A stretch of DNA of 39,149 nucleotides from a virus: IMG/VR virus record IMGVR_UViG_3300042560_001015, positions 1 through 39,149 of that record; one strand, 5' to 3'. The notes beneath the pieces were generated by a model. That model saw only the letters and a program-made list of their open reading frames with translations, was not told the DNA's origin and ran no database searches. Both the position numbers and the translations under genes were made by a program. Shown one piece after another: positions 2,911 to 34,498 of this stretch. The first letter of the stretch is position 1. Each line of letters starts with the position of its first letter.

Positions 2911-3550
2911 CAGCCCGGCCTCTTCTCAAAGATATCTTCCGGACACCATGCCCCGGCCGCTACCAGCACTTGATACATTGTCATTCGTCCGATTTCCTCG
3001 AACGTCCAACCGTACTTCTCTGCGACATTGCGAAACACCGTAGCCCACGGAATCGTCCGTCTCGTTACTGGCCCGACGCCGCCGCTACTGTCGGGCCATT
3101 TGAGTTTCCCACTTCGGTCTTTTCTTCAATCGCGTGGATGGCATTGACGATGCCGTTAATGTCGCCAAACCAATCAATGAAATCCGCCCCGAGCTGAATG
3201 CCCTGTTCTGCTGGAAGATCCTGCGGAAACTCTATCGAGTGATTCTTCCCCATGGCTCGCCAAATCGACCACGACAGCCCACGCATCGACCTGTCGAACC
3301 GATCTTCATCGACCATTGTGGCAATCAGCGGACGAGCTACAGTGTCCGCTGCGATCTTGATTGCCATTTGCTGAACAGCACGATCTTTGATTGAATCGAT
3401 GCCCGCGTAAGGATTTCCCACGCGGGAAAGAATCGCTTCCTCTTTTTTTGCGTAGTCGGCAAGAGACCGAATTTCGAGCCGATACGTTCTGCCGTCTTTG
3501 CTGAGTTCTGCAGTCCGCCGACCGCAAAGATTGAACAATCCATCCGCCAT
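2910..3550 (-). CDS. Frameshifted tail chaperone, gpGT-like fusion
   Basis: A -1 shift at 3110-3104 takes ribosomes from the gpG-like frame into a second frame. That frame is open from the slippery site to a TGA at 2912-2910, which overlaps the tape measure ATG. The added about 65 residues include YGWTFEEIGRMTMYQVLVAA, a compact helical stretch like the T domains of other tail chaperones that bind tape measure protein. The extension has no start codon of its own with a ribosome site and fills exactly the gap between the two genes. This is the classic lambda G/GT layout. The product is inferred from frame and position. Confidence 0.85.
3065..3550 (-). CDS. Tail assembly chaperone, gpG-like, 161 aa
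   Basis: This is the unshifted product of the tail chaperone pair that coats the tape measure protein during tail assembly. A strong Shine-Dalgarno sequence (AGGAG) lies just before the ATG. It sits between the tail tube gene and the tape measure gene, which is the conserved place for gpG. The protein is alpha-helical and charged, and its C-terminus is rich in Ala, Ser, Gly and Thr. A G GGA AAC slippery heptamer lies near the 3' end in the correct frame, and ribosomes that do not shift stop at TAA 3067-3065. Confidence 0.85.
   Translation of the reverse strand: MADGLFNLCGRRTAELSKDGRTYRLEIRSLADYAKKEEAILSRVGNPYAGIDSIKDRAVQQMAIKIAADTVARPLIATMVDEDRFDRSMRGLSWSIWRAMGKNHSIEFPQDLPAEQGIQLGADFIDWFGDINGIVNAIHAIEEKTEVGNSNGPTVAAASGQ
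3104..3110 (-). promoter_or_regulatory. -1 ribosomal frameshift slippery site
   Basis: On the minus strand the heptamer G GGA AAC sits in the zero frame of the gpG-like gene, matching the X XXY YYZ rule. After a one-base backward slip the next codon is CTC, and the frame is open to 2910. It is near the 3' end of the short gene, as in lambda, whose site is GGGAAAG. Confidence 0.85.
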
Positions 3551-3563
3551 GGATTACTCCTGA

Positions 3564-3968
3564 TTAGTTGAGAGTGAAAGCACCGGCACCTGTCGGAATG
3601 CCTTGGAAGTCGAAAGCAAAATCGCACGCCACTGGTTCACCTGAATCAGCATCGAACGTGATGTCACCGACATCGGTGACGATGATCGTCCCGGTGATTG
3701 TGTCGCTGGATGCCGTGCCATGACACACAACGCTGTATTCGGTGCCGATCTTCATCGCCATCGTTGCCCCGGCATGAATGAACAGTGTCGCCGTGCCCGA
3801 CCAGTCTTTAACGCCAATCGTTGTTTTGCGACCGCCAGCTGTCGAGTTGCTGGCGTATCGGCCCTTGGCTGCTGTGCCTTTCACTGTCCATTTTGTCGTG
3901 TGGTCAATTGCCGTTCCGGAAATTTTGAACGTCATTTCATTGCCGGTGAGCGGTGTGCCTGCTGGCAT
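3564..3968 (-). CDS. Putative major tail tube protein, 134 aa
   Basis: A small beta-rich protein. It begins MPAGTPLTGNE, has the ITGTIIVTDVGDITFDADSG region, and ends in FAFDFQGIPTGAGAFTLN. This matches the pattern of tail tube proteins of long-tailed phages, in which a beta sandwich polymerises into rings. It stands directly before the tail chaperone pair, the expected location. A purine-rich ribosome site (AAGGAA) precedes the ATG. The family call rests on position, size and fold pattern, not on a diagnostic motif. Confidence 0.75.
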   Translation of the reverse strand: MPAGTPLTGNEMTFKISGTAIDHTTKWTVKGTAAKGRYASNSTAGGRKTTIGVKDWSGTATLFIHAGATMAMKIGTEYSVVCHGTASSDTITGTIIVTDVGDITFDADSGEPVACDFAFDFQGIPTGAGAFTLN

Positions 3969-20105: not shown

Positions 20106-20701
20106 CGAAACAAGCCTCCGAAAAGTCCACGCCGCTGTCTAGTGTTTGTTGGGCATTGGCCACCGGGACATTGCGACCCGCGATTGATCATCTGCACTGG
20201 CTTTGACTTCATCGCGACTGGCTTGCCGTCGTGTAAATCGGCATGGATGTCAGCCATCTGCTGGTGAGTCATGCCGTCCGTGTTGATGCCATGCTCACGC
20301 AGATGTGCTGATGTCTGAAGGATTGTCGGATTCCAATTGCCTTCGATGTCCAATCGAAGAACCGTGCCATCTGAAGCAACACGAGAAGAAGCCGCCGGCG
20401 TAGCGACTTGAGAGGAGTTAGGGGTGTTGTTCGCTGTTGCCGGCGGCTCAGGGGCAGACTTGATCACCTCCGTTCCGTTGGACTTTGGAGACGACAAACT
20501 TGCTTCCAGTTTTGTTTCTATGCGAGCGAGTGCTGCTGTGTTTTCCTTCAGGATCACAACAGCTTCGATTGTCTTTTCTGATGTCGCTTTCTGCTCAGAA
20601 ACGACAGTCTCTTTTGCGTTTTCAAATGCTGTCCGCATCGCCGCGAGTTCACCAGAATCACCGCATCCAGTTAGCATGATCAGAAACAGAAATCGTTTCA
20701 T
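20102..20701 (-). CDS. Putative lipoprotein, 199 aa
   Basis: The start at 20701 forms an ATGA overlap with the protease stop; the longer frame upstream is a shadow. The N-terminus MKRFLFLIMLTGCGDSG is a signal peptide ending in a lipobox (LTGC), so the mature protein should be lipid-anchored. Residues 20-75 form a coiled coil (ENAKETVVSEQKATSEKTIE). A Pro/Ser/Thr linker follows, and then a domain with DIEGNWNPTILQTSAHLRE and a basic Cys-containing end. A lipoprotein with a coiled coil next to the holin is a candidate outer-membrane spanin, but no partner inner-membrane spanin is clear. Confidence 0.7.
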   Translation of the reverse strand: MKRFLFLIMLTGCGDSGELAAMRTAFENAKETVVSEQKATSEKTIEAVVILKENTAALARIETKLEASLSSPKSNGTEVIKSAPEPPATANNTPNSSQVATPAASSRVASDGTVLRLDIEGNWNPTILQTSAHLREHGINTDGMTHQQMADIHADLHDGKPVAMKSKPVQMINRGSQCPGGQCPTNTRQRRGLFGGLFR

Positions 20702-21522
20702 ATCTCCAGCCCTTTCCGCATGTCTTCCAAGGTGAATTCCCGAGGCTTTACGTTTGGCATGTCGGACAGACCGAAGCAGGCCGTGTACCGATGCCGCAGC
20801 ATTTGCTCCACGGCATTTGGTGCCCATTCAGCCCAGCCACCATTGCCCCAGTTTGCTCCCCAACTGTTAAGGATGAACACGAAAGGCCGACCGGAAGAAT
20901 CAAGCCGTTCTGATAAGCCAAGCAGGGCTATCGCATGGCCGCCACCACCTGCCCCACTGAATGAATTGACGATTGGGCGGTCGACTTCGCCACCCCATGA
21001 AATGCCGATTGAGATTCCGCCTTGGCCGCTGCCGAGAAACGTTCTCACGCCGTCATAGGACTCCATTCGGTAAGACTGGCCAACCTTATGCTGAGCCGCG
21101 TCTGCTTCGATCTCGGCCCAATTTGACGGCCTGCGAGCGTCGTAACGGCCTGAGTATTTCCAGAGTTCTTCGCGGCAGATGCCCTTTGTCGTCGCGAGCT
21201 TAATCCCGCCGCTAATTGTGCTGCCACGGTCAGACGTGATTCCGTCGATTCGCTGAGTCTCGTAATAAGCCGCAGCCCTCGACAACTGCAAAGACAGATC
21301 ACTAGTCGCAATGTAATAGCATAGCTCGCAAACGCTACTCAGTGCGTGCCCCTGACAGCTTCCGACCGATCCTTGGTTTTCAATTTTCATCACCTTGCGA
21401 GGGTCAACCTTGACTTCGCTGTAACTGCCTCGCATGGCAAGCACTGCTGATTCCCCTGGCAATGCGTCCAGAAAATCGCGATCTTCTTCAGTCTGTAACC
21501 ATCCGCCGATGAAGCCGCTCAT
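20698..21522 (-). CDS. Papain-like (C1 family) cysteine protease, 274 aa
   Basis: All four landmarks of papain-type peptidases are visible: NQGSVGSCQGHAL with oxyanion Gln50 and nucleophile Cys56, GGGGHAIALLG with His196, and ILNSWGANWGNGGWA with Asn219. There is no signal peptide or long pro-region. The length suits a bare catalytic domain. The gene follows the holin and a membrane protein with ATGA overlaps and precedes a lipoprotein gene, i.e. the position normally held by an endolysin. No lysozyme, amidase or transglycosylase gene is seen elsewhere. It may act on a protein or peptide component of the host envelope. The fold call is strong, the lysis role is inferred. Confidence 0.88.
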   Translation of the reverse strand: MSGFIGGWLQTEEDRDFLDALPGESAVLAMRGSYSEVKVDPRKVMKIENQGSVGSCQGHALSSVCELCYYIATSDLSLQLSRAAAYYETQRIDGITSDRGSTISGGIKLATTKGICREELWKYSGRYDARRPSNWAEIEADAAQHKVGQSYRMESYDGVRTFLGSGQGGISIGISWGGEVDRPIVNSFSGAGGGGHAIALLGLSERLDSSGRPFVFILNSWGANWGNGGWAEWAPNAVEQMLRHRYTACFGLSDMPNVKPREFTLEDMRKGLEI

Positions 21523-23047: not shown

Positions 23048-23253
23048 GCTGACGCGCCCATTGATGAGTTCAGCAACTCACGAGGAACGCACATTCGTCC
23101 CTCCGTGTTTTTATCTCTGTCCAACGTTTCCAACTCGATCACGTCTTCCTGATTCGTTGCGCCGAGGAACACCCCAACAACACGCCAAACCCTCCAGCCT
23201 CCATTGTCTGCACGAACGCGAATCAACTCATCGACCTTCCACGATTTTGCCAT
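23041..23253 (-). CDS. Small beta-rich protein, 70 aa
   Basis: ATG 23253 (MAKSWKVDELIRVRADNG) begins within the end of the iron-sulfur gene (26-base overlap). The text WRVWRVVGVFLGATNQEDVI suggests a small SH3-like barrel. Function unknown. Confidence 0.55.
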   Translation of the reverse strand: MAKSWKVDELIRVRADNGGWRVWRVVGVFLGATNQEDVIELETLDRDKNTEGRMCVPRELLNSSMGASAC

Positions 23254-23467
23254 CTTTGCTGCTTTCTTTAACTGACAATGCTTGCGGCGGACACAGTTCC
23301 ACCTGCTTTCTGATTTCCTCATTTGTTGCCCCGTTCATGTTTACACATGGACGCGACTGCGGATCGAACACGCTCGGCAGCCCACGCCAACATGCTTCGC
23401 AATGCTCGCACTTCTCGGAGTCCCACAGGACCGTCAGCCCATCTTTCGTGTACTCACGTTTTGCCAT
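23228..23467 (-). CDS. YjdI-type divergent 4Fe-4S ferredoxin-like protein, 79 aa
   Basis: Matches the Fer4_19 (YjdI) family pattern: VLWDSEKCEHCEACWRGLP, then VFDPQSRPCV, then IRKQVELCPPQAL. The Cys at positions 20, 23, 26 and 59, and possibly 41, could hold one iron-sulfur cluster. In bacteria this family is found alone or with GNAT or CDGSH partners, with poorly known functions. It is rare in phages. Next to it are unknown small genes, so its electron partner is not apparent. A metal-binding but clusterless role cannot be excluded. Confidence 0.75.
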   Translation of the reverse strand: MAKREYTKDGLTVLWDSEKCEHCEACWRGLPSVFDPQSRPCVNMNGATNEEIRKQVELCPPQALSVKESSKDGKIVEGR

Positions 23468-23473
23468 GTCTGC

Positions 23474-23680
23474 TCACCCTACCACTGACCACACATCGAA
23501 AAACAGATCATCAACCCATTGCCCAGTGAACCGCACAGCCTTCCCAAAGGACGCCTTGATGTCCGCAATGAGCCCAGGGCTAAAATAGATTTCCACTCGC
23601 CGCCCCTGAGACGACAAGATCCTCCCCGTGTGAGTGTCCAGGTCGATCTGCCGAATCTCCCCCGTCAGTTGCTGAGACAT
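23474..23680 (-). CDS. Small beta-rich protein, 68 aa
   Basis: GAAGGAAAACCA upstream of ATG 23680 is a good ribosome site. The text GEIRQIDLDTHTGRILSSQG, then KAVRFTGQWVDDLFFDVW, suggests a small beta barrel. Its first 101 bases overlap the end of the DUF6884-like gene in another frame. Function unknown. Confidence 0.6.
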   Translation of the reverse strand: MSQQLTGEIRQIDLDTHTGRILSSQGRRVEIYFSPGLIADIKASFGKAVRFTGQWVDDLFFDVWSVVG

Positions 23681-24206
23681 TGGTTTTCCTTCGTGTGTAG
23701 GTTCGCGTTTTGGTTTTCGTTTCTGGTTTCGCCTGACAATACCACGCCAACTGCTCACCGATCCCGAGGCCAGCCAGCGGCAGCTCGACCGCGATTCCCA
23801 CTGCTGCCAGAATCTCTGCCAGCGGATGGCAGTAGTCAGCCCCGGCGTGGATCTCTACCGTGAGTTCTGACGGCTTGATTGGAGTAACTGACCTCCCAAG
23901 GTTGTAGGACTCCCAAAGCTCCTCCATGAGCCTCTGAGCGACTCCGACGTGCCAGGCTGCAATGTCCGCCGCTTCCATGTCCGCGAACGTCTGATCGTAC
24001 GCCTTGAGCCCGATGTGCGGGAACCAAACGCCGTACCGAGCCGACAGGACGGCCCAACGAATCCCCCTAGCTTTTGCGTAGTCGACTCGCTTCGTAAAAA
24101 GCTGCGATCCGTAGAGTTGCTCAGGAGTGACGCGACCGCCTGTCCGTGGATCAAAGTCGACAGCCTTTTTTGTTTTGCTGCAGCCGATCAGCATTAGTCG
24201 TGTCAT
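23580..24206 (-). CDS. DUF6884-like protein, 208 aa
   Basis: The N-terminus (RLMLIGCSKTKK), the LYGSQLFTKRVDYAKARG helix, WAVLSARYGVWFPHIGLKAYD and the conserved YD are typical of the DUF6884 family, which is related to YaaA-like folds. ATG 24206 has GGAG upstream. The core ends near residue 165; the last about 40 residues are low complexity (KTKTRTYTRRKTN) and overlap the next gene. Members occur in phages and actinobacteria, and the biochemical function is not known. Confidence 0.7.
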   Translation of the reverse strand: MTRLMLIGCSKTKKAVDFDPRTGGRVTPEQLYGSQLFTKRVDYAKARGIRWAVLSARYGVWFPHIGLKAYDQTFADMEAADIAAWHVGVAQRLMEELWESYNLGRSVTPIKPSELTVEIHAGADYCHPLAEILAAVGIAVELPLAGLGIGEQLAWYCQAKPETKTKTRTYTRRKTNVSATDGGDSADRPGHSHGEDLVVSGAASGNLF

Positions 24207-24255
24207 CTTAAGAAACTCCAATGTTTTCAGGGACAGTGGATGCAATTACCTCTGT

Positions 24256-25241: not shown

Positions 25242-26105
25242 TTAACTGCTACCAGCGGAAAGGATTCGTTGCAGTTTTGCTTTCTCGCGTTCTGCCGTGC
25301 TTGATGGACTTGTAGGTTTCCCATGATTGCTTCCGTTCTGTTTTACGCTCGGCTGTTCCTGCTGGTCCTGAAACACCACCCAACCCTCTGCCATTGACTT
25401 TTGGACCGCGGCGCAAAATCCATCCGCACCCATTTTTGACACCTCGTGCCACCACGCTTGCTCCTGCGGGCTGTTCCGCGGTGGCACTTTGCTGTGTTTG
25501 TCTTTGCTTTCAAGATGGCGAAACCACAAACCGACTGACTGCATTACCGCAGCAGTTTTCATTCGCTCAGGAACAACGATGTCTTGCCCAGGAGAATAAA
25601 GAGAGAGAGAAGGACTAGGGCTAGAAGGTTCCCCCTGTTCGTACCCCACTTCATCCCTTGTTCGTACCCCACTTCGTATCCCGATTTCGGATGTATTCGT
25701 GTTCAGTTGTCCGTCTCTGAATCCGTCTTTATACCCCTGATCGTATCCCGATTTAGGGTATGATTCTTCGATTGGAGTATCGTCGATGGCTTCGTATCCG
25801 CTTGGAATTGTTACGAAGTATTCACCCGCGGATCGCTTGCCGTTGCACTCATACTGAAGCCACCCAGCGGCGACGGCTCGCTTTCTTGCCGCGTCAAATT
25901 GCTCCCATTTCTTGAACCCAAGCGTTTCGACGAGCTGTGAGTTCCAAAACTTTGCGGCCCCGCGGTATCGCATTGCGTCTTCTGTATGGACGATCACGAC
26001 GAGGAGCGAAAAGGCATCTCGACCGATCTCGGCGGCGACGGCTGATTTGTGCAGCAGCCTCACGAACCTATGGGCAAAAAACGGCTCACGCCTTGGATAC
26101 GGCAC
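25242..26105 (-). CDS. Replication initiator-like winged-helix protein, 287 aa
   Basis: GTG start at 26105 with GGAGG just upstream. Residues 10-95 form a winged-helix domain of the kind seen in phage replication initiators: FVRLLHKSAVAAEIGRDAF, then a WNSQLVETLGFKKWEQFD helix, then AGWLQYE. The middle (about 110-160) is low complexity with GYDQGYKDGF repeats encoded by repeated DNA. The C-terminus has EQAWWHEVSKMGADGF. As with lambda O, the origin may lie inside the gene. It shares 20 bases with the fusion gene upstream. Confidence 0.65.
   Translation of the reverse strand: MPYPRREPFFAHRFVRLLHKSAVAAEIGRDAFSLLVVIVHTEDAMRYRGAAKFWNSQLVETLGFKKWEQFDAARKRAVAAGWLQYECNGKRSAGEYFVTIPSGYEAIDDTPIEESYPKSGYDQGYKDGFRDGQLNTNTSEIGIRSGVRTRDEVGYEQGEPSSPSPSLSLYSPGQDIVVPERMKTAAVMQSVGLWFRHLESKDKHSKVPPRNSPQEQAWWHEVSKMGADGFCAAVQKSMAEGWVVFQDQQEQPSVKQNGSNHGKPTSPSSTAEREKAKLQRILSAGSS
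25637..25755. repeat. Repeated sequence in the initiator-like gene, possible iterons
   Basis: GTTCGTACCCCACTTC occurs twice exactly (25637-25652 and 25660-25675). TTCGTATCCCGATTTC (25673-25688) and ATCGTATCCCGATTTA (25740-25755) are close variants. Spacing is irregular. The repeats encode a Gly-Tyr-rich linker, so they may be only protein repeats, but their place within an initiator gene fits replication iterons. Confidence 0.5.
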
Positions 26106-26979
26106 GACTTTCCTCCTGCTCGTATAGTCGCTGTAGTTCTTGCATTTGGATCTGCCTCACCCCTACAGCCTCCCAAACTTCATCTGCACATATCTCGCAT
26201 GATTCTGCTTCCAATACCTCCTTCGCTGCAAACCTAATGACCTGCCATCCGCTTGCTTCTAAATATCGCGTTCGCTTTCTGTCCGCGATGAATGCAGCCT
26301 GATTCCCGTGGAACTCGATTCCGTCAATTTCAACGACGATCTTTGTGTCCACAAACGCAAAGTCAACTCTATAGGGTCCGATCTGGTGCTGTGGAATTGG
26401 TCTATCATATAATCTCTGCATCGACGAAATCAGCTTCCTTGCGAACGCTAATTCTGCTGGCGACTCGCAAGCATTCATGAACCTGTCGTAATCGTCTCGC
26501 TCGTCGCAAATGTCTAAGATGCTGTCGACTGTTTCATTCCTGTACAAGCCAAACCCACCGATGCAAAATCCTTTTGCAAACCAGCATTCTTTACCTTCGC
26601 TTCCGACCACATACACAGGCTTTCCGATGCCGTAAGCGAATCCTATTTCGCACAGGGTTCCATGTGCGTCGTCGCCGACGACAGCAATCACAACGTCGCT
26701 GCTACGAATTCCTAAGATGGCGCGTTCCCATACATCTTTGTGCGGCCTGAGTTCATGTTCATGTGTGTTTTTGTCGTAAACACTTTCTCCTGCACCATGC
26801 ATCCCATCGCCGTGAGCCCCACCGTGTTGACCTTCAATAAAAAATGGCCCAACATAGTCATGCCTGCCCCTGATGGCATTCTTTATGACCTTTGTTCCAA
26901 ATGGGTGATTGCAAAGATCGTCCACGAAATCGTTTCGCCAATCCTTAAACCCGATCTTTCCAGCCAAATAAATCTTCAT
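26086..26979 (-). CDS. Nucleoside deoxyribosyltransferase-like domain fused to a DUF559/Vsr-like endonuclease, 297 aa
   Basis: Residues 1-140 match the nucleoside 2-deoxyribosyltransferase fold: MKIYLAGKIGFKDWRNDF, then SSDVVIAVVGDDAHGT followed by CEIGFAYGIGKPVYVVG, where Glu111 is the likely nucleophile. A His-rich insert spans about 50-80. Residues 172-255 are a PD-(D/E)xK nuclease of the DUF559/Vsr type: SPAELAFARKLI, YRVDFAFVDTKIVVEIDG (Asp206, Glu217, Asp219), then GWQVIRFAAKEV. The two domains together suggest cleavage of a base-sugar bond, or sensing of a nucleotide, coupled to DNA nicking. No such pairing is familiar to me. It is preceded only 13 bases after a strong terminator and followed by the initiator gene. 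Confidence 0.78.
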   Translation of the reverse strand: MKIYLAGKIGFKDWRNDFVDDLCNHPFGTKVIKNAIRGRHDYVGPFFIEGQHGGAHGDGMHGAGESVYDKNTHEHELRPHKDVWERAILGIRSSDVVIAVVGDDAHGTLCEIGFAYGIGKPVYVVGSEGKECWFAKGFCIGGFGLYRNETVDSILDICDERDDYDRFMNACESPAELAFARKLISSMQRLYDRPIPQHQIGPYRVDFAFVDTKIVVEIDGIEFHGNQAAFIADRKRTRYLEASGWQVIRFAAKEVLEAESCEICADEVWEAVGVRQIQMQELQRLYEQEESRAVSKA

Positions 26980-26992
26980 TGTTCATTCCATG

Positions 26993-27038
26993 AAAAAAAC
27001 CGCCACGCAAAAAGGTCGAGAACTTTTTGCGGGCGGTT
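26993..27038 (-). terminator. Strong intrinsic terminator/attenuator upstream of the fusion gene
   Basis: A 14-bp stem with one bulged base (27000-27014 paired with 27023-27036, 8-nt loop) is followed on the minus strand by seven Ts (26999-26993). It sits only 13 bases before the ATG of the 297-aa fusion gene, leaving no room for a promoter between them. It may close the early operon and also attenuate the gene behind it. Confidence 0.85.
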
Positions 27039-27485: not shown

Positions 27486-27683
27486 TCAGTGTTGCTTGTG
27501 TGCATCCCATTCGGTCATCGAATCATCATTCCCGCTCGTCTCAGTCACCGGCCGATGTTTCTGCCGCCCGAAGTCAATCGCCTCTTGGATCTGACCAATC
27601 GGCAATCGTTCCACATGCGGCGGCATCTCGTAGCCGTAGACAGAGAACCATTCATCGTGAAAGCGTGTTTTACGTTTGGTCAT
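27486..27683 (-). CDS. Unknown small protein, 65 aa
   Basis: ATGA overlap with the HD-protein stop. Text includes FHDEWFSVYGYEMPPHVERL and IGQIQEAIDFGRQKH. No membrane segment or metal site is clear. Function unknown. Confidence 0.55.
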   Translation of the reverse strand: MTKRKTRFHDEWFSVYGYEMPPHVERLPIGQIQEAIDFGRQKHRPVTETSGNDDSMTEWDAHKQH

Positions 27684-28231
27684 CTCATCGCCTCCAGCGT
27701 CTTCATCGTTTCCTTAAACGACACAAGCCAGTGCGTTGCGTCAATCTGTGCGTTTCCGTGAAACGCCAACTGCCAAGCTGCTTCCCTAAGATTTGGTAGT
27801 GCGTCCGTGATCTCGCTGGATGACTTGCCCAGCAACTGCATCTCCAGCTTGCAGGCCGTGTCGTCGGCAGTGCTGACCGCGTTCAGCACAGCGATTGACG
27901 GATCGAACCCAATCAGCGAATACAACTGCCGGTCGATAGCCTGTTGCTCGCAGAGGATCTCCATTCGCGACGACATGCTAAGAAGCCGCGTCATCGGCCG
28001 CAGAATGTCGCCTGTCAACGCCTCGTGGGCATCGTGTAACAACGCCGCCATCTTGTGTTCTGGATCGTCAGGAGCCAATGCCGCGACAACCAAAGAATGC
28101 CGAGCCACGCTGTAATGATCTGGCGTTGCTCCGGCGTATCGGCAGAGCTTTCCAAGTTGCCGTGCGATCTGTTCTGCGGGGAATTCCGCTATTGACTGGA
28201 TCTCCGGCAACATCCATGATGGCCGACTCAT
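27680..28231 (-). CDS. HD-domain phosphohydrolase, YfbR-like, 183 aa
   Basis: His45 (HYSVARHS), His66-Asp67 (ALLHDAHEALTGD) and a later Asp (STADDTACKLE) form the HD metal site. The motif order and length are those of YfbR-type 5'-deoxynucleotidases, which hydrolyse dNMPs. In a phage this would adjust nucleotide pools or remove modified nucleotides. ATGA overlaps at both ends place it in the early operon. Confidence 0.8.
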   Translation of the reverse strand: MSRPSWMLPEIQSIAEFPAEQIARQLGKLCRYAGATPDHYSVARHSLVVAALAPDDPEHKMAALLHDAHEALTGDILRPMTRLLSMSSRMEILCEQQAIDRQLYSLIGFDPSIAVLNAVSTADDTACKLEMQLLGKSSSEITDALPNLREAAWQLAFHGNAQIDATHWLVSFKETMKTLEAMR

Positions 28232-29920: not shown

Positions 29921-30168
29921 CCCTGCCCCCTCAAAACGCCGCTGCCACTTGGAAGCATTTGCGTCGAACACTCACGAATCTGTGACGGCCGATACAAGCC
30001 TTTGTCCTCTGGAAGATCAGGCCGTTCCATGCGGATCGATTCCGCCAGTCCGATAGTTGCTTCAGTGCCCCAAATCTCTTCTAATGATGGATCTCGCGTC
30101 ATTGGCTTGCGATCGACTGAAGCGTGCAGCCTGTTGGATTTCTTCCCGGCTTTCTTGCGTCGTGTCAT
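29917..30168 (-). CDS. Small protein of unknown function, 83 aa
   Basis: Starts in an ATGA overlap with the csrA stop and ends in one with rusA. Basic N-terminus (TRRKKAGKKSNRLH), then acidic/helical (SLEEIWGTEATIGLAESI). Not recognised. Confidence 0.6.
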   Translation of the reverse strand: MTRRKKAGKKSNRLHASVDRKPMTRDPSLEEIWGTEATIGLAESIRMERPDLPEDKGLYRPSQIRECSTQMLPSGSGVLRGQG

Positions 30169-30437
30169 TGCGGTTTCCTTCTCATGAGTTCACCTGGTAG
30201 CCGTTCACCGATTCGCACGACTGGCATAAGCGGAGCAATTGGAAACGCCTCTGGATTGAAGCCTGTTTCCTGAATCGCGTCGTGGATCTCCTTACGGTCG
30301 ATCCTCACGTTCCGCGATGCCGTGAACCCAATCCGTGCGTGATTGGTTCCGACAGTGTCAACCAGCTTGACGACAATCCTTTCCTCACCGACCGTGATGA
30401 TGATCTCCTCACTAACCGACCTTCGAAGCACCAACAT
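30165..30437 (-). CDS. csrA: CsrA/RsmA-family RNA-binding regulator, 90 aa
   Basis: The first 56 residues align by eye with CsrA: MLVLRRSVSEEIIITVG, then HARIGFTASRNVRIDRKEI followed by HDAIQ. Arg48 sits at the RNA-binding position of E. coli Arg44. A 34-residue extension (NPEAFPIAPLMPVVRIGERL and so on) is unusual. ATG 30437 is preferred over 30452 because AAAGGA lies just before it; this site also fits the CsrA binding word, so autoregulation is possible. CsrA dimers bind GGA in mRNA leaders and control translation or stability. It could redirect host carbon metabolism or regulate the phage's own mRNAs. Confidence 0.88.
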   Translation of the reverse strand: MLVLRRSVSEEIIITVGEERIVVKLVDTVGTNHARIGFTASRNVRIDRKEIHDAIQETGFNPEAFPIAPLMPVVRIGERLPGELMRRKPQ

Positions 30438-30448
30438 CTGAAATCCTT

Positions 30449-30553
30449 TCATTGACCATGAAAACCTGCGAACGGCTTTGACGAACTATTGACCACGCCA
30501 CCGCTGGCAAGCCGTCCGCAGGAGTACAAAATCAGAGCCTGCTGCGCCTTCAT
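30449..30553 (-). CDS. Possible leader peptide before csrA, 34 aa
   Basis: An open frame ending in a TGA 11 bases before the csrA ATG. No clear ribosome site. The ATG lies inside the long inverted repeat at 30532-30606. It could be a regulatory leader peptide or chance. Confidence 0.25.
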   Translation of the reverse strand: MKAQQALILYSCGRLASGGVVNSSSKPFAGFHGQ

Positions 30554-31552: not shown

Positions 31553-31875
31553 TGCTGCTCCTTCACGCGAAACGTCATTGCTGATTTGCCGGTCACTTCG
31601 CAGGCCCGATAACCGCATTCAATGGCCTTGCCGACCTCGACCAGTTCGTGTAATCGCTTCCGATATGACTCTGCCAGCTTGCCATACTGTCGGACGCACT
31701 CGGTTGCGATCTCGTTGGCTGTTCGTGGTGACAATGCACGACCGAGGACAACCATGCAGCAGGATTGCAGGCCGGTTAGCTGTGGCTCTGTTTCGGCAGC
31801 ACTTTTTTGCGACGTGATTGGGTCTGATTTGCGGGAGATGTTTGCGGGACAGTCGAAGAGGGTTAGCTGGCTCAT
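31549..31875 (-). CDS. Winged-helix-like protein, 108 aa
   Basis: ATGA overlap with the methyltransferase. After a short N-terminal peptide (SQLTLFDCPANISRKSDPIT) comes a helix-turn-helix-like region (LSPRTANEIATECVRQYG) and VGKAIECGYRACEV, typical of winged-helix proteins encoded next to phage DNA enzymes. Could regulate early genes or modulate the methyltransferase. Inference from pattern only. Confidence 0.6.
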   Translation of the reverse strand: MSQLTLFDCPANISRKSDPITSQKSAAETEPQLTGLQSCCMVVLGRALSPRTANEIATECVRQYGKLAESYRKRLHELVEVGKAIECGYRACEVTGKSAMTFRVKEQQ

Positions 31876-32804
31876 GTTGCGACCTCCTCAAGCTCAGAAA
31901 ACAAACTCGACTGATGAACCGCCGAATGCTGACGTGTTGCCAAATCAAGATTTTTTAATGCCTGCTTATGATACTCGGTTTTCAGCTCGCACCCGTAAAA
32001 CCGCCGCTTGTCGTAGATCGCTCTTTTCGTCTTTGGCGACGTTCCGCCGAGCGAAACAAAGCCTTCTGACCCAATGCCAGCGAACGGGCTGAATACGATT
32101 TCGCCGGGATTTGAGTACAACAAAACACATCGGCGAATCACTTCAAGCTGGAGCGGGCAAATGTGCCTCGTGTCATCGTCTGATTTTGCCGCCGCTGTGT
32201 TCAGGGTGTCGGTCTCATGCACGTCATCCCAGCATCCTTCCGCCCATGCGATCCAATCGTTTCGGCTGACCTGTCCTTTCGCGTCGATGGGAGTGGCGTT
32301 CTCCCCTGGCTTGCGAAACTTGATCAAGTAGTCTTGAAGCGTGCCGCGTTGCTTTGAGCGATCGCTTTCCAGCCCAGAAAACTGCAGTTCTCGTGATCGT
32401 GTTCGGATGGCCTGACTCTGAGGATTCTTGCGAACACTCCAGTCGTATTCGTAGACAAGGCCAGCACGCTCACCGAGCCGAATGTTCGTTCCTCGAAAGT
32501 CGCACAAGCCAACGCCACCCGATCGCTTCATTCGTGGAATCTGACAGACGTGAACGATTGCGGCCCGTCCGGGTTTCAGGACTCTGGCAAGCCCATTGAA
32601 CATGAACGACAGATGAACCGCCGCTTCCATGCCCATTGAGTCAACGTTTCCAATGTCGCCTTCTGCATCGCTGTATGCGTACAGTGAAGGAAATGGCGGG
32701 CTGAACACAGCAAAGTCGACTGAGTCTTCAGGCATGTCTTCCAGCATGTGCGGAATGCAATCGCCGTGATGGACGTGGTATTGTTCGTTATCAGACAGCA
32801 GCAT
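31872..32804 (-). CDS. DNA methyltransferase, beta-type (m4C or m6A), 310 aa
   Basis: SPPF at residues 35-38 (FAVFSPPFPS) is motif IV, common in N4-cytosine enzymes. FSPFAGIGSEG near residue 250 is the SAM-binding motif I, so motif order is IV before I, the beta class. A target recognition stretch lies between. There is no partner restriction gene, so it is an orphan enzyme likely protecting the phage from host restriction. ATGA overlap with the following gene. Confidence 0.85.
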   Translation of the reverse strand: MLLSDNEQYHVHHGDCIPHMLEDMPEDSVDFAVFSPPFPSLYAYSDAEGDIGNVDSMGMEAAVHLSFMFNGLARVLKPGRAAIVHVCQIPRMKRSGGVGLCDFRGTNIRLGERAGLVYEYDWSVRKNPQSQAIRTRSRELQFSGLESDRSKQRGTLQDYLIKFRKPGENATPIDAKGQVSRNDWIAWAEGCWDDVHETDTLNTAAAKSDDDTRHICPLQLEVIRRCVLLYSNPGEIVFSPFAGIGSEGFVSLGGTSPKTKRAIYDKRRFYGCELKTEYHKQALKNLDLATRQHSAVHQSSLFSELEEVAT

Positions 32805-33030
32805 GTTTTGCTCTTTCGGTAAGACGTTTGTGTTCGCGAATCAACAGGCAATAAACAAACCCGAATGCGTGATCGCGAGATGAAAAACAGGCAAAAGGAG
32901 TGATCAAGTCGCGAGGGTCAGTGCGGTATAAATTCCGAATGGCCGGGTAATAGTCCGGCATGATTGTGTGATCGATCTGCTCTAAGATTTCGATATAGAT
33001 CGCACAGAAATCAGTTGACGAAACAAGCAT
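32791..33030 (-). CDS. Unknown small protein, 79 aa
   Basis: I place the start at ATG 33030 (MLVSSTDFCAIYIEILEQID), inside the end of the helicase gene. The text is mixed with Tyr-Pro-rich middle (MPDYYPAIRNLYRTDPRDL) and a basic end. Overlaps the methyltransferase start by 14 bases. Function unknown. Confidence 0.5.
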   Translation of the reverse strand: MLVSSTDFCAIYIEILEQIDHTIMPDYYPAIRNLYRTDPRDLITPFACFSSRDHAFGFVYCLLIREHKRLTERAKHAAV

Positions 33031-34498
33031 GGCCGATGTCCTTGAAAAGTGCCTCCTGCTCCTCAGTGTCCTGTTGAACTCGACCGGCTTTGCGAAGCAC
33101 GTTGTCGACAAATGGAACTTCCAGTTCTGTCACTGGAATATGGACATTAAGAGGCTTCGTAGAACCGATACGATTCGAACGCTTGACGGCCTGATAGAAC
33201 TCCTCATAGGAATCCTTGATGCCGCTAAAAATTTGCCGCGTGCATACCTGTAGATTCAAACCAAATCCGAGTATCTTTGGTTTCGTAATGAGCACTTTGA
33301 CGCGGCCTGACTTAAACGCATCAACCGTCGCTTCCCGGTCTGCTTCTTTAGTGTCGCCAGAAACGCTGACGGCTTCTGGAAACAGCTTTTCCATCTGCTC
33401 TTGTTCGTCGTTGTAGTGACACCAGATGATTGTGGATTCTTCGGGCCAGCTTTCGACCTGCGATCGAATAAAGGCAGGCTTTAGCGATGCGATGCCGCCC
33501 TTGCCTTTTGCGATCTGGGACAACTTGCCACGGTCACCGATGCCGCCGATGTTGTTCGTGATCAGCGAGCCGGTAACTGACTGAGCGGCCTTGCGTTGCT
33601 CGTCTGTTAAATCAATGTGATCGATATGGATATTGATTGGTGGAGTGACGCCAACATTATCCTTCCAGCCGTAGGTGGCCGGATTCGTCAGGAAGATCGA
33701 CCAATCAGCAAGTGACCGATAGAACGGCTTTAGTGCGTGCGGCTTTAGTTCCCATCGGTTTTGAGTCTCGCCGCGATTGATAAAGTATGTGGCGAGAAAC
33801 TCATTGACGGTCTTCGCACGGTCCAACAGCACAGCATGATTCGCAAACTCGATTCGATCGTTCGGGGCTGGCGTTCCTGTCGCGCACAATTTCCAATCAA
33901 GTCCTCGGCCCAATTCGATCAGCCGCGTGCCCCATGCACCGTAATGACTTTTGAGCATGGATGATTCGTCAAGAATCAGACCGGTAAGTTTGCCAGGCTC
34001 AAGTCCTTCGCGAATCGCTTCGTAGTTCGTGATTCCAATTTGCGAATCGAGCGAGCTACTTGAGTTCAGCCAATACTGCAAATCGAAGGCTTTAACTCGA
34101 CCGATCGGGAATGATTCGCCGTACCATTTGAGGGCTTCGTCGACGGTCTGACGGCATACCATAAGCGGCGAAACGATCAGCACTTTGCCTTTTGTCTGCT
34201 CAGCACAATGGCGAGCAAACTCCAGAAGCATTAGAGTTTTGCCGAGTCCGCAGTCAGCGAAGATTGCATACTTGCGACGTTCCACGGCGATGCGAACGAT
34301 GTCTGCCTGGTAGTCGAACAGGTTGACGGCCGGAGTGTATTTCTTGCCCGTCTTTCGCTTTGACTTCACGCCGACGAGTGAGGCGTATTCGTCAGGGACA
34401 ATTGCGGCCGATCCCTTAAACTGGTAGATCGGGCATTTGCGTACAGCTAAAAAACGTGCGTAGTCTTCTGCTGAACGTGTATTGAAATCAATTCTCAC
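33011..34498 (-). CDS. SNF2/DEAD-type helicase, 495 aa
   Basis: A superfamily 2 ATPase. Motif I ADCGLGKT (residues 81-88), motif Ia VLIVSPLMVC, motif II LILDESSMLK (DExx variant DESS), motif III CATGTPAPND, and C-terminal motifs around GFGLNLQ and AVKRSNRIGS (motif VI). GTG start in a GTGA overlap with the RHH gene. Such phage helicases probably remodel or unwind DNA in replication or counter host DNA-binding proteins. Its length matches the phage type. Confidence 0.9.
   Translation of the reverse strand: MRIDFNTRSAEDYARFLAVRKCPIYQFKGSAAIVPDEYASLVGVKSKRKTGKKYTPAVNLFDYQADIVRIAVERRKYAIFADCGLGKTLMLLEFARHCAEQTKGKVLIVSPLMVCRQTVDEALKWYGESFPIGRVKAFDLQYWLNSSSSLDSQIGITNYEAIREGLEPGKLTGLILDESSMLKSHYGAWGTRLIELGRGLDWKLCATGTPAPNDRIEFANHAVLLDRAKTVNEFLATYFINRGETQNRWELKPHALKPFYRSLADWSIFLTNPATYGWKDNVGVTPPINIHIDHIDLTDEQRKAAQSVTGSLITNNIGGIGDRGKLSQIAKGKGGIASLKPAFIRSQVESWPEESTIIWCHYNDEQEQMEKLFPEAVSVSGDTKEADREATVDAFKSGRVKVLITKPKILGFGLNLQVCTRQIFSGIKDSYEEFYQAVKRSNRIGSTKPLNVHIPVTELEVPFVDNVLRKAGRVQQDTEEQEALFKDIGHACFVN

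Follow-up and report, generated by a model that had tools for sequence, protein, structure and literature searches.

MilB, BcmB and BlsM (PDB 4jem, 4jen and 5vto) are N-glycosidases of CMP or hmCMP that belong to the nucleoside deoxyribosyltransferase (NDT)-like superfamily and have their catalytic glutamate in the motif G-T-x-x-E-I-G-x-A. They have neither a nuclease domain nor the D-H-G-C insert described below. DNPH1, a 2'-deoxynucleoside 5'-phosphate N-hydrolase, is a single-domain nucleotide enzyme. In a survey of 21,191 viral proteomes, DrHyd domains were found in viruses only as the ADP-ribosyl-cyclase type (PMC9503650). For NDT domains in fusions with Abi modules, a possible action on DNA had been predicted before (PMC3710099).

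Among nucleases, the closest described proteins are the EDxHD homing endonuclease I-Bth0305I and NGO0050 (PDB 3hrl), whose partner domains are not of the NDT type. The T5orf172 and HNH homing endonucleases of phages, along with Odn of phage ICP1, combine a nuclease with an exchangeable partner near replication genes, and those partners are zinc-finger or RepA_N DNA-binding domains (PMC10448857). There is also a precedent for base excision being used against phage DNA: the DNA glycosylase Brig1 (PMC11078745), which is host-encoded, has an unrelated fold and is not fused to a nuclease.

Here we describe a phage gene whose product joins an NDT-type domain to a DNA nuclease. To our knowledge, no enzyme of the NDT superfamily acts on a base within a DNA polymer. 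In the literature that we searched, no paper brought together a deoxyribosyltransferase and DUF559, or a deoxyribosyltransferase, GIY-YIG and HNH; this is a weak negative result, as subscription journals were mostly outside the search. The gene is from a viral record of 39,149 bases, which we analysed over its whole length ("the window") and which is a tailed-phage contig, with portal, terminase and tape-measure genes. Its N-terminal half belongs to a distinct and apparently undescribed family, which we name the DHGC family after a conserved motif and which was not among the versions covered by the viral DrHyd survey (PMC9503650). We view this family as a viral branch of the DrHyd superfamily that has repeatedly been wired to DNA nucleases and is placed in replication modules.

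The fusion gene and its two domains

The features that we discuss are:

25242..26105, minus strand: adjoining downstream gene, family unassigned, with a homologue in contig L116
26086..26979, minus strand: NDT-DUF559 fusion gene (P0001), 297 amino acids, ATG start
26200..26484, minus strand: DUF559/MTES_1575 (EDxHD, Vsr-like) nuclease domain, residues about 166-260 (PF04480, PF18741, conservation and fold matches)
26536..26973, minus strand: NDT/MilB/DNPH1-like domain, residues 3-148 (PF05014, conservation, and matches to PDB profiles and folds)
26647..26649, minus strand: codon of Glu111, which aligns with MilB E103, is conserved in 37 of 37 members and is expected to be the nucleophile
26740..26832, minus strand: His-rich insert, residues 50-80, a divergent copy of the DHGC-family motif
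26993..27037, minus strand: strong terminator-like hairpin followed by a U-tract (RNA fold); from its end, the fusion gene's start codon is about 15-20 nt away

The initial annotation had proposed that a single 297-residue open reading frame at 26086-26979 joins a deoxyribosyltransferase-like domain to a Vsr-like nuclease. The reading frame, on the minus strand and with an ATG start, is as described, and it overlaps the adjoining downstream gene by 20 nt. Both halves score above the curated Pfam cut-offs: PF05014 (Nuc_deoxyrib_tr) on residues 3-148 (6.4e-11, 42.9 bits against a cut-off of 28.8), PF04480 (DUF559) on residues 197-259 (4.4e-13, 49.5 bits against 20.6), and PF18741 (MTES_1575) on residues 180-259 (4e-10, 40.1 bits against 38.2). 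The N-terminal half thus falls inside the NDT-like superfamily by profile. When we compared the protein with solved structures using phmmer, the C-terminal part matched NGO0050 at 3e-6 and the N-terminal part matched the CMP glycosidase BlsM (5vto) at 0.008. An artefact in which two reading frames were joined is ruled out by the same domain order over the full length of proteins from other genomes.

AlphaFold models cover both domains with moderate confidence (mean pLDDT 71.8 with nine aligned relatives and 79.5 with 28), and their domain orientation and insert are unreliable. With Foldseek against the PDB, the N-terminal half matched MilB, BcmB, DNPH1, NDTs and YtoQ, while the nuclease half matched I-Bth0305I (3r3p; TM-score on the target 0.70-0.79) and NGO0050. 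Each match spans half of the query, which keeps the E-values weak (4e-4 to 1e-2). EngA/YphC GTPases also appeared among the top matches, and we discounted them as they span both domains at an rmsd of about 14. Two of the original descriptions need adjusting. The N-terminal half is in the superfamily that was named, but its fold is nearer to the nucleotide N-glycosidases (MilB, BcmB and BlsM, and DNPH1) than to classical NDTs alone; profiles and predicted fold make it a member of this superfamily, though perhaps not a canonical enzyme of the NDT or DNPH1 type. The C-terminal half does have an EDxHD/Vsr-like fold with its residues kept, but its nearest relatives are I-Bth0305I and NGO0050 rather than Vsr, which was absent from the top fold and structure matches.

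The same fusion is present in other genomes, so we reject the idea that it is unique to this phage. A search of viral contigs with the single sequence found no relatives; it took alignments of relatives to find them. A full-length homologue (30% identity, 2e-32) is encoded on a Streptomyces canus plasmid. With this protein as the query, we found phage contig L007, four more Streptomyces loci (intact in L010 and L012, truncated in L009 and L011) and a divergent fusion protein from a Myxococcota MAG (L013). Another Streptomyces locus (L043) and two phage contigs (L077 and L084) were added later. Besides the window protein, there are at least eight full-length NDT-DUF559 fusions, from phage contigs, Streptomyces, a plasmid and the Myxococcota MAG. 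In all of the fusions that we scanned, the DUF559-type half is above the Pfam cut-off; the NDT half is near or below its cut-off in the more divergent ones.

The fusion was found in 3 of 393 Streptomyces genomes (two of which were already known) and in 1 of 396 Actinomycetota, and the NDT family was found in 1 of 250 and 1 of 299 genomes in the bacterial samples that we searched, the hit being the seed itself, so the family is not common in bacteria in these samples. Among 50,697 records of cultured phages, there was no full-length family member at the thresholds we used; the matches were limited to the nuclease half, apart from an HNH-only match for an HNH-NDT query. The DUF559 halves of the fusions group together when compared to 25 control DUF559 domains (L009, though also listed as a control, is itself a truncated fusion and is not counted among the 25). 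This clustering bears on a single origin for the NDT-DUF559 fusion, with some forks unresolved and with L013 possibly separate.

Some of the bacterial copies have neighbours worth recording. In S. griseus, the fusion gene (L046, 10444-11352) is flanked by a type III restriction-modification pair on one side and Wadjet-like genes (JetC) on the other, and an integrase-like gene is close by. The Myxococcota fusion gene (L013) is followed after about 500 nt, on the same strand, by a gene of the uracil-DNA-glycosylase superfamily (3004-3819). Genes for DUF5131 (phage Gp37/Gp68) and TcmP (L002, 1511-3472) are near the S. canus plasmid copy.

The DHGC family and its nuclease partners

A search with the NDT half alone uncovered the DHGC family, which occurs in viral contigs and in a small number of bacteria. 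Its members share the blocks Y-x-A-G-K-I....W-R; G-P-F-F (also G-P-x-F); D-H-G-C-x-H-G-x3-4-H-G...C; and G-T-x-x-E-I-G-x-A (also G-T-x-x-E-x-G-x-A). The window protein has every block, and its insert reads Q-H-G-G-A-H-G...H-G, without the cysteines. Our comparison includes 37 NDT domains, of which one pair (L057 and L058) is nearly identical.

Twenty-two of the 37 are fused to a nuclease, with some assignments below threshold:

DUF559, C-terminal: 9 members
HNH, N-terminal: 9 members
HNH, C-terminal: 1 member (L083)
T5orf172/MUG113, C-terminal: 1 member (L073)
T5orf172/MUG113, N-terminal: 1 member (L082)
phage-endonuclease-I-like domain, N-terminal: 1 member (L051)

The HNH, MUG113/T5orf172 or DUF559 domains are above the Pfam cut-offs in L049, L055, L057, L070, L073, L083 and the DUF559 fusions. 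Those of L082 (T5orf172) and L051 (Phage_endo_I) are below the cut-off; L081 is called as HNH on a motif alone; and L047, L052, L053 and L058 are assigned to HNH from their similarity to L049 or L057. The other 15 members, which include bacterial ones, stand alone without a nuclease. The partners represent up to four folds and may precede or follow the NDT domain. We count seven architecture states, and to account for them any tree requires no fewer than six changes; the best tree, which is poorly resolved, requires 12. This base-handling domain, then, has been joined repeatedly to different kinds of nuclease in a little-known viral family. Because related NDT domains join several unrelated nuclease folds, a functional link between the two domains is supported indirectly.

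No NDT branch in the tree is longer than that of the window domain (2.72), which has no well-supported parent and could not be placed.

The viral copies sit in replication and recombination modules. Among 99 proteins encoded near viral members, primase-helicases (D5/DUF5906/VapE), Prim-Pol, DnaB, DnaD-like loaders, Sak4 and ERCC4-type nucleases recur, and SSB and RusA have a single match each.

Conserved residues and the putative substrate

Five residues are identical in all 37 NDT domains: Tyr4, Arg15, Gly44, Pro45 and Glu111. Nearly as conserved are Trp133 (36 of 37), His52 and His61 (35 of 37 each) and His56 (34 of 37), followed by Asp51 and Cys54 (32 of 37 each) and Cys67 (30 of 37). The glutamate that had been singled out as catalytic is therefore invariant; it aligns with E103 of MilB by profile alignment, and its counterpart in DNPH1 is E104 (PMC4081090, PMC10603095). 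In the nuclease half, Glu176, Asp206, Glu217, Asp219, His224 and Asp233 are invariant in all nine NDT-DUF559 fusions, and these include the three acidic residues (Asp206, Glu217 and Asp219) proposed from the sequence of the window protein. The catalytic residues (Glu176, Asp206, Glu217, Asp219 and His224) are shared with I-Bth0305I and NGO0050.

Other parts of the MilB site have changed. By the profile alignment, 28 of the 37 members have Cys where MilB has Asp78, and the window protein has Ala87 there. This aspartate binds both the ribose and the base in MilB (PMC4081090), and its counterpart in DNPH1, Asp80, is the catalytic acid (PMC10603095). The position of MilB Ser97, which binds phosphate, is Ala or Cys in the DHGC family. 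MilB Phe17, on the other hand, is replaced by a tyrosine: by inspection of motif positions, Tyr4 pairs with Y24 of DNPH1 and F17 of MilB. By the same positional criterion, the Tyr, the Glu and a deoxyribose-type pocket are shared with DNPH1. The F17Y substitution in MilB reportedly shifts its preference to deoxyribose (PMC10603095). Given this effect and the invariance of Tyr4, a deoxynucleotide is a better guess for the substrate than NAD+ or a ribonucleotide; that is, the sequence of the NDT domain suggests a preference for deoxyribose.

The His-rich insert had been noted as odd. It is real and homologous to the conserved motif of the family, by which we reject low-complexity noise as its source. 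In most members, the insert looks like a Cys-His-His-Cys metal site, to judge from its sequence, and we speculate that its D-H pair takes the place of Glu55-His56 of DNPH1. In the window protein, His52, His56 and His61 are kept, while Asp51 is replaced by Gln, Cys54 by Gly and Cys67 by Val. L008 has a similar pattern of losses. Across the family, a member that lacks one of these residues tends to lack others as well (positions 51 and 54, Fisher p = 0.0004; positions 54 and 67, p = 0.0025; not corrected for relatedness). Given its long branch and the loss of Asp51, Cys54 and Cys67, the NDT half of the window protein may be altered or inactive.

Gene surroundings and possible roles

The only relative that we found of the adjoining downstream gene is in L116 (61% over 150 amino acids). 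There, an HNH endonuclease gene precedes the homologue, in the slot that the fusion gene occupies in the window, and an HNH_3 gene lies further upstream. Just before the fusion gene is the hairpin, whose region folds at -40.3 kcal/mol over a 121-nt stretch (z = -3.5; RNA fold, minus strand). A scan for consensus terminators did not list it, probably owing to a bulge, and a promoter scan found nothing above chance near the fusion gene. The hairpin may attenuate expression of the fusion gene, which may depend on read-through. A few genes upstream, on the same strand, an HD-domain protein (27680-28231, minus strand) matches a dNMP 5'-phosphatase PHROG at 6.3e-27, and a RusA gene is further upstream, also on this strand.

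The best explanation that we have, and one that we hold only tentatively, is that a nucleotide-recognising or base-processing domain of the NDT type is coupled to a DNA nuclease. The N-terminal part would be a phage-borne branch of the NDT/DNPH1/MilB enzymes that binds a 2'-deoxynucleotide, and most DHGC members probably act on the bond between the base and the deoxyribose. The C-terminal part would be an EDxHD/Vsr-like PD-(D/E)xK nuclease that cuts DNA. The NDT part might select or process a nucleotide, whether as a base inside DNA or at one of its ends or as a freed dNMP; the nuclease would then cut, during replication and recombination of the phage DNA. The target would probably be DNA unlike the phage's own, from the host or from a rival. 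We argue that the conserved Glu and Tyr mark an active or recently active deoxynucleotide site, and that the repeated fusions to nucleases imply that this site works on DNA or its products. Against this, the position of the general-acid Asp is replaced across the family and the Ser97 position of MilB is not kept, and homing endonucleases, too, usually have HNH, GIY-YIG-type or EDxHD nuclease domains. That the Asp is lost speaks against a chemistry that simply copies MilB or DNPH1. The initial annotation had suggested coupled base removal and nicking: the link between the domains gains indirect backing from the fusions to several nuclease folds, but base removal plus nicking is a putative activity, and the canonical acid is missing. 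A bolder form of the proposal, which we consider rather unlikely, is that these are a new class of modular DNA-attack enzymes from phages of soil and water. Their NDT-derived domain would bind metal, single out or remove one kind of base in DNA, which might be a modified one, and bring any of several unrelated nucleases to it. Such a base-selective glycosylase-nuclease would tell self from foreign DNA during phage replication. If the NDT domain does act on bases in DNA, this would be a novel chemical means of telling DNAs apart, from which base-specific tools for cutting DNA might be developed.

The main rival, which we think possible but not likely, is a homing-type or domesticated phage endonuclease: a mobile nuclease module in which the DHGC domain recognises DNA or a nucleotide without catalysis. 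The gene would either spread by cutting at the slot beside replication genes or have been recruited against competing satellites, as was Odn of ICP1 with its borrowed RepA_N domain. The nuclease classes in the family (HNH, T5orf172 and EDxHD) are those of phage homing endonucleases, the nuclease half of our protein matches one in fold, and the exchange in L116 and the hairpin directly before the start codon fit as well. Homing endonuclease genes are also reported near essential genes, with domain swapping and Odn-type domestication (PMC10448857). However, a passive recognition domain would not need Tyr4 and Glu111 to be invariant, the 15 members without a nuclease exist in bacteria as well as viruses, and the partner domains in that study bind DNA and are not enzymes, whereas ours is from an enzyme superfamily and has an invariant Glu. 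The exchange is seen in the single relative that we found, neither an empty site nor an intron or intein came to light, and there is no sign of homing for the window protein. Should the NDT domain serve for recognition of DNA alone, it would represent a novel type of partner domain for homing nucleases.

Three other explanations seem to us less likely than either the coupled domains or the homing nuclease. Nucleotide salvage or sanitising, which we consider improbable, would have the nuclease degrade host or damaged DNA and the NDT domain hydrolyse particular dNMPs (as DNPH1 acts on hmdUMP), which would exclude unwanted or modified bases from the phage's DNA. The family profile is indeed closest to BcmB, MilB and BlsM, with DNPH1 further down, and genes for the dNMP 5'-phosphatase match and a DNA methylase are nearby in the window; but the acid Asp and the phosphate-binding Ser of those enzymes are not kept, and salvage would not need a covalent fusion to nucleases of several sequence types. 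Even less probable is a nucleotide-triggered or NAD-linked defence effector, in which the NDT (DrHyd) domain would sense or cleave a nucleotide such as NAD+ and so switch the nuclease on. DrHyd, TIR and SLOG domains do serve as sensors or NADases in immunity (PMC9503650), and an integrase-like gene, a type III restriction system and Wadjet JetC all lie close to the S. griseus copy. Most of the members that we found are viral and in replication modules, though, with a clear defence setting for only one bacterial copy; the invariant Tyr4 suggests deoxyribose; and the glutamate is kept in all members, in contrast to inactive sensors. When we compared the protein to known anti-phage defence systems, no PADLOC model matched the whole of it, and there were weak partial matches to the nuclease half (the best at 0.0065). 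We give a similarly low probability to an explanation for the window phage only, in which the NDT half is decaying or structural and the nuclease works alone. The long branch and the joint loss of Asp51, Cys54, Cys67 and the equivalent of Cys87, with intact nuclease residues, would fit decay. Yet Tyr4, Lys8, Arg15, Gly44-Pro45, His52, His56, His61, Glu111 and Trp133 are all kept, and the similar losses in L008 also speak against it.

We also noticed several other genes in the window, all on the minus strand. The DNA methylase gene (31872-32804) adjoins one for an SNF2-like helicase (33011-34498), so that the pair spans 31872-34498; both match PHROG 16, and as they match different parts of its single 986-position profile, this suggests a split polyprotein. 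A CsrA-like regulator is encoded at 30165-30452 (PHROG 9500, 6.5e-8) and a DUF6884 protein at 23580-24245 (3.6e-27). The protein from 20698-21522 is a candidate papain-type cysteine peptidase by eye (GSCQGHALSS, GGGGHAIALLG and LNSWGANWGNGGW). Finally, a small Cys-rich, iron-sulfur-like protein is encoded at 23228-23467, and tblastn identified a 36% identical stretch in an actinobacterial locus (L030, 7e-8).
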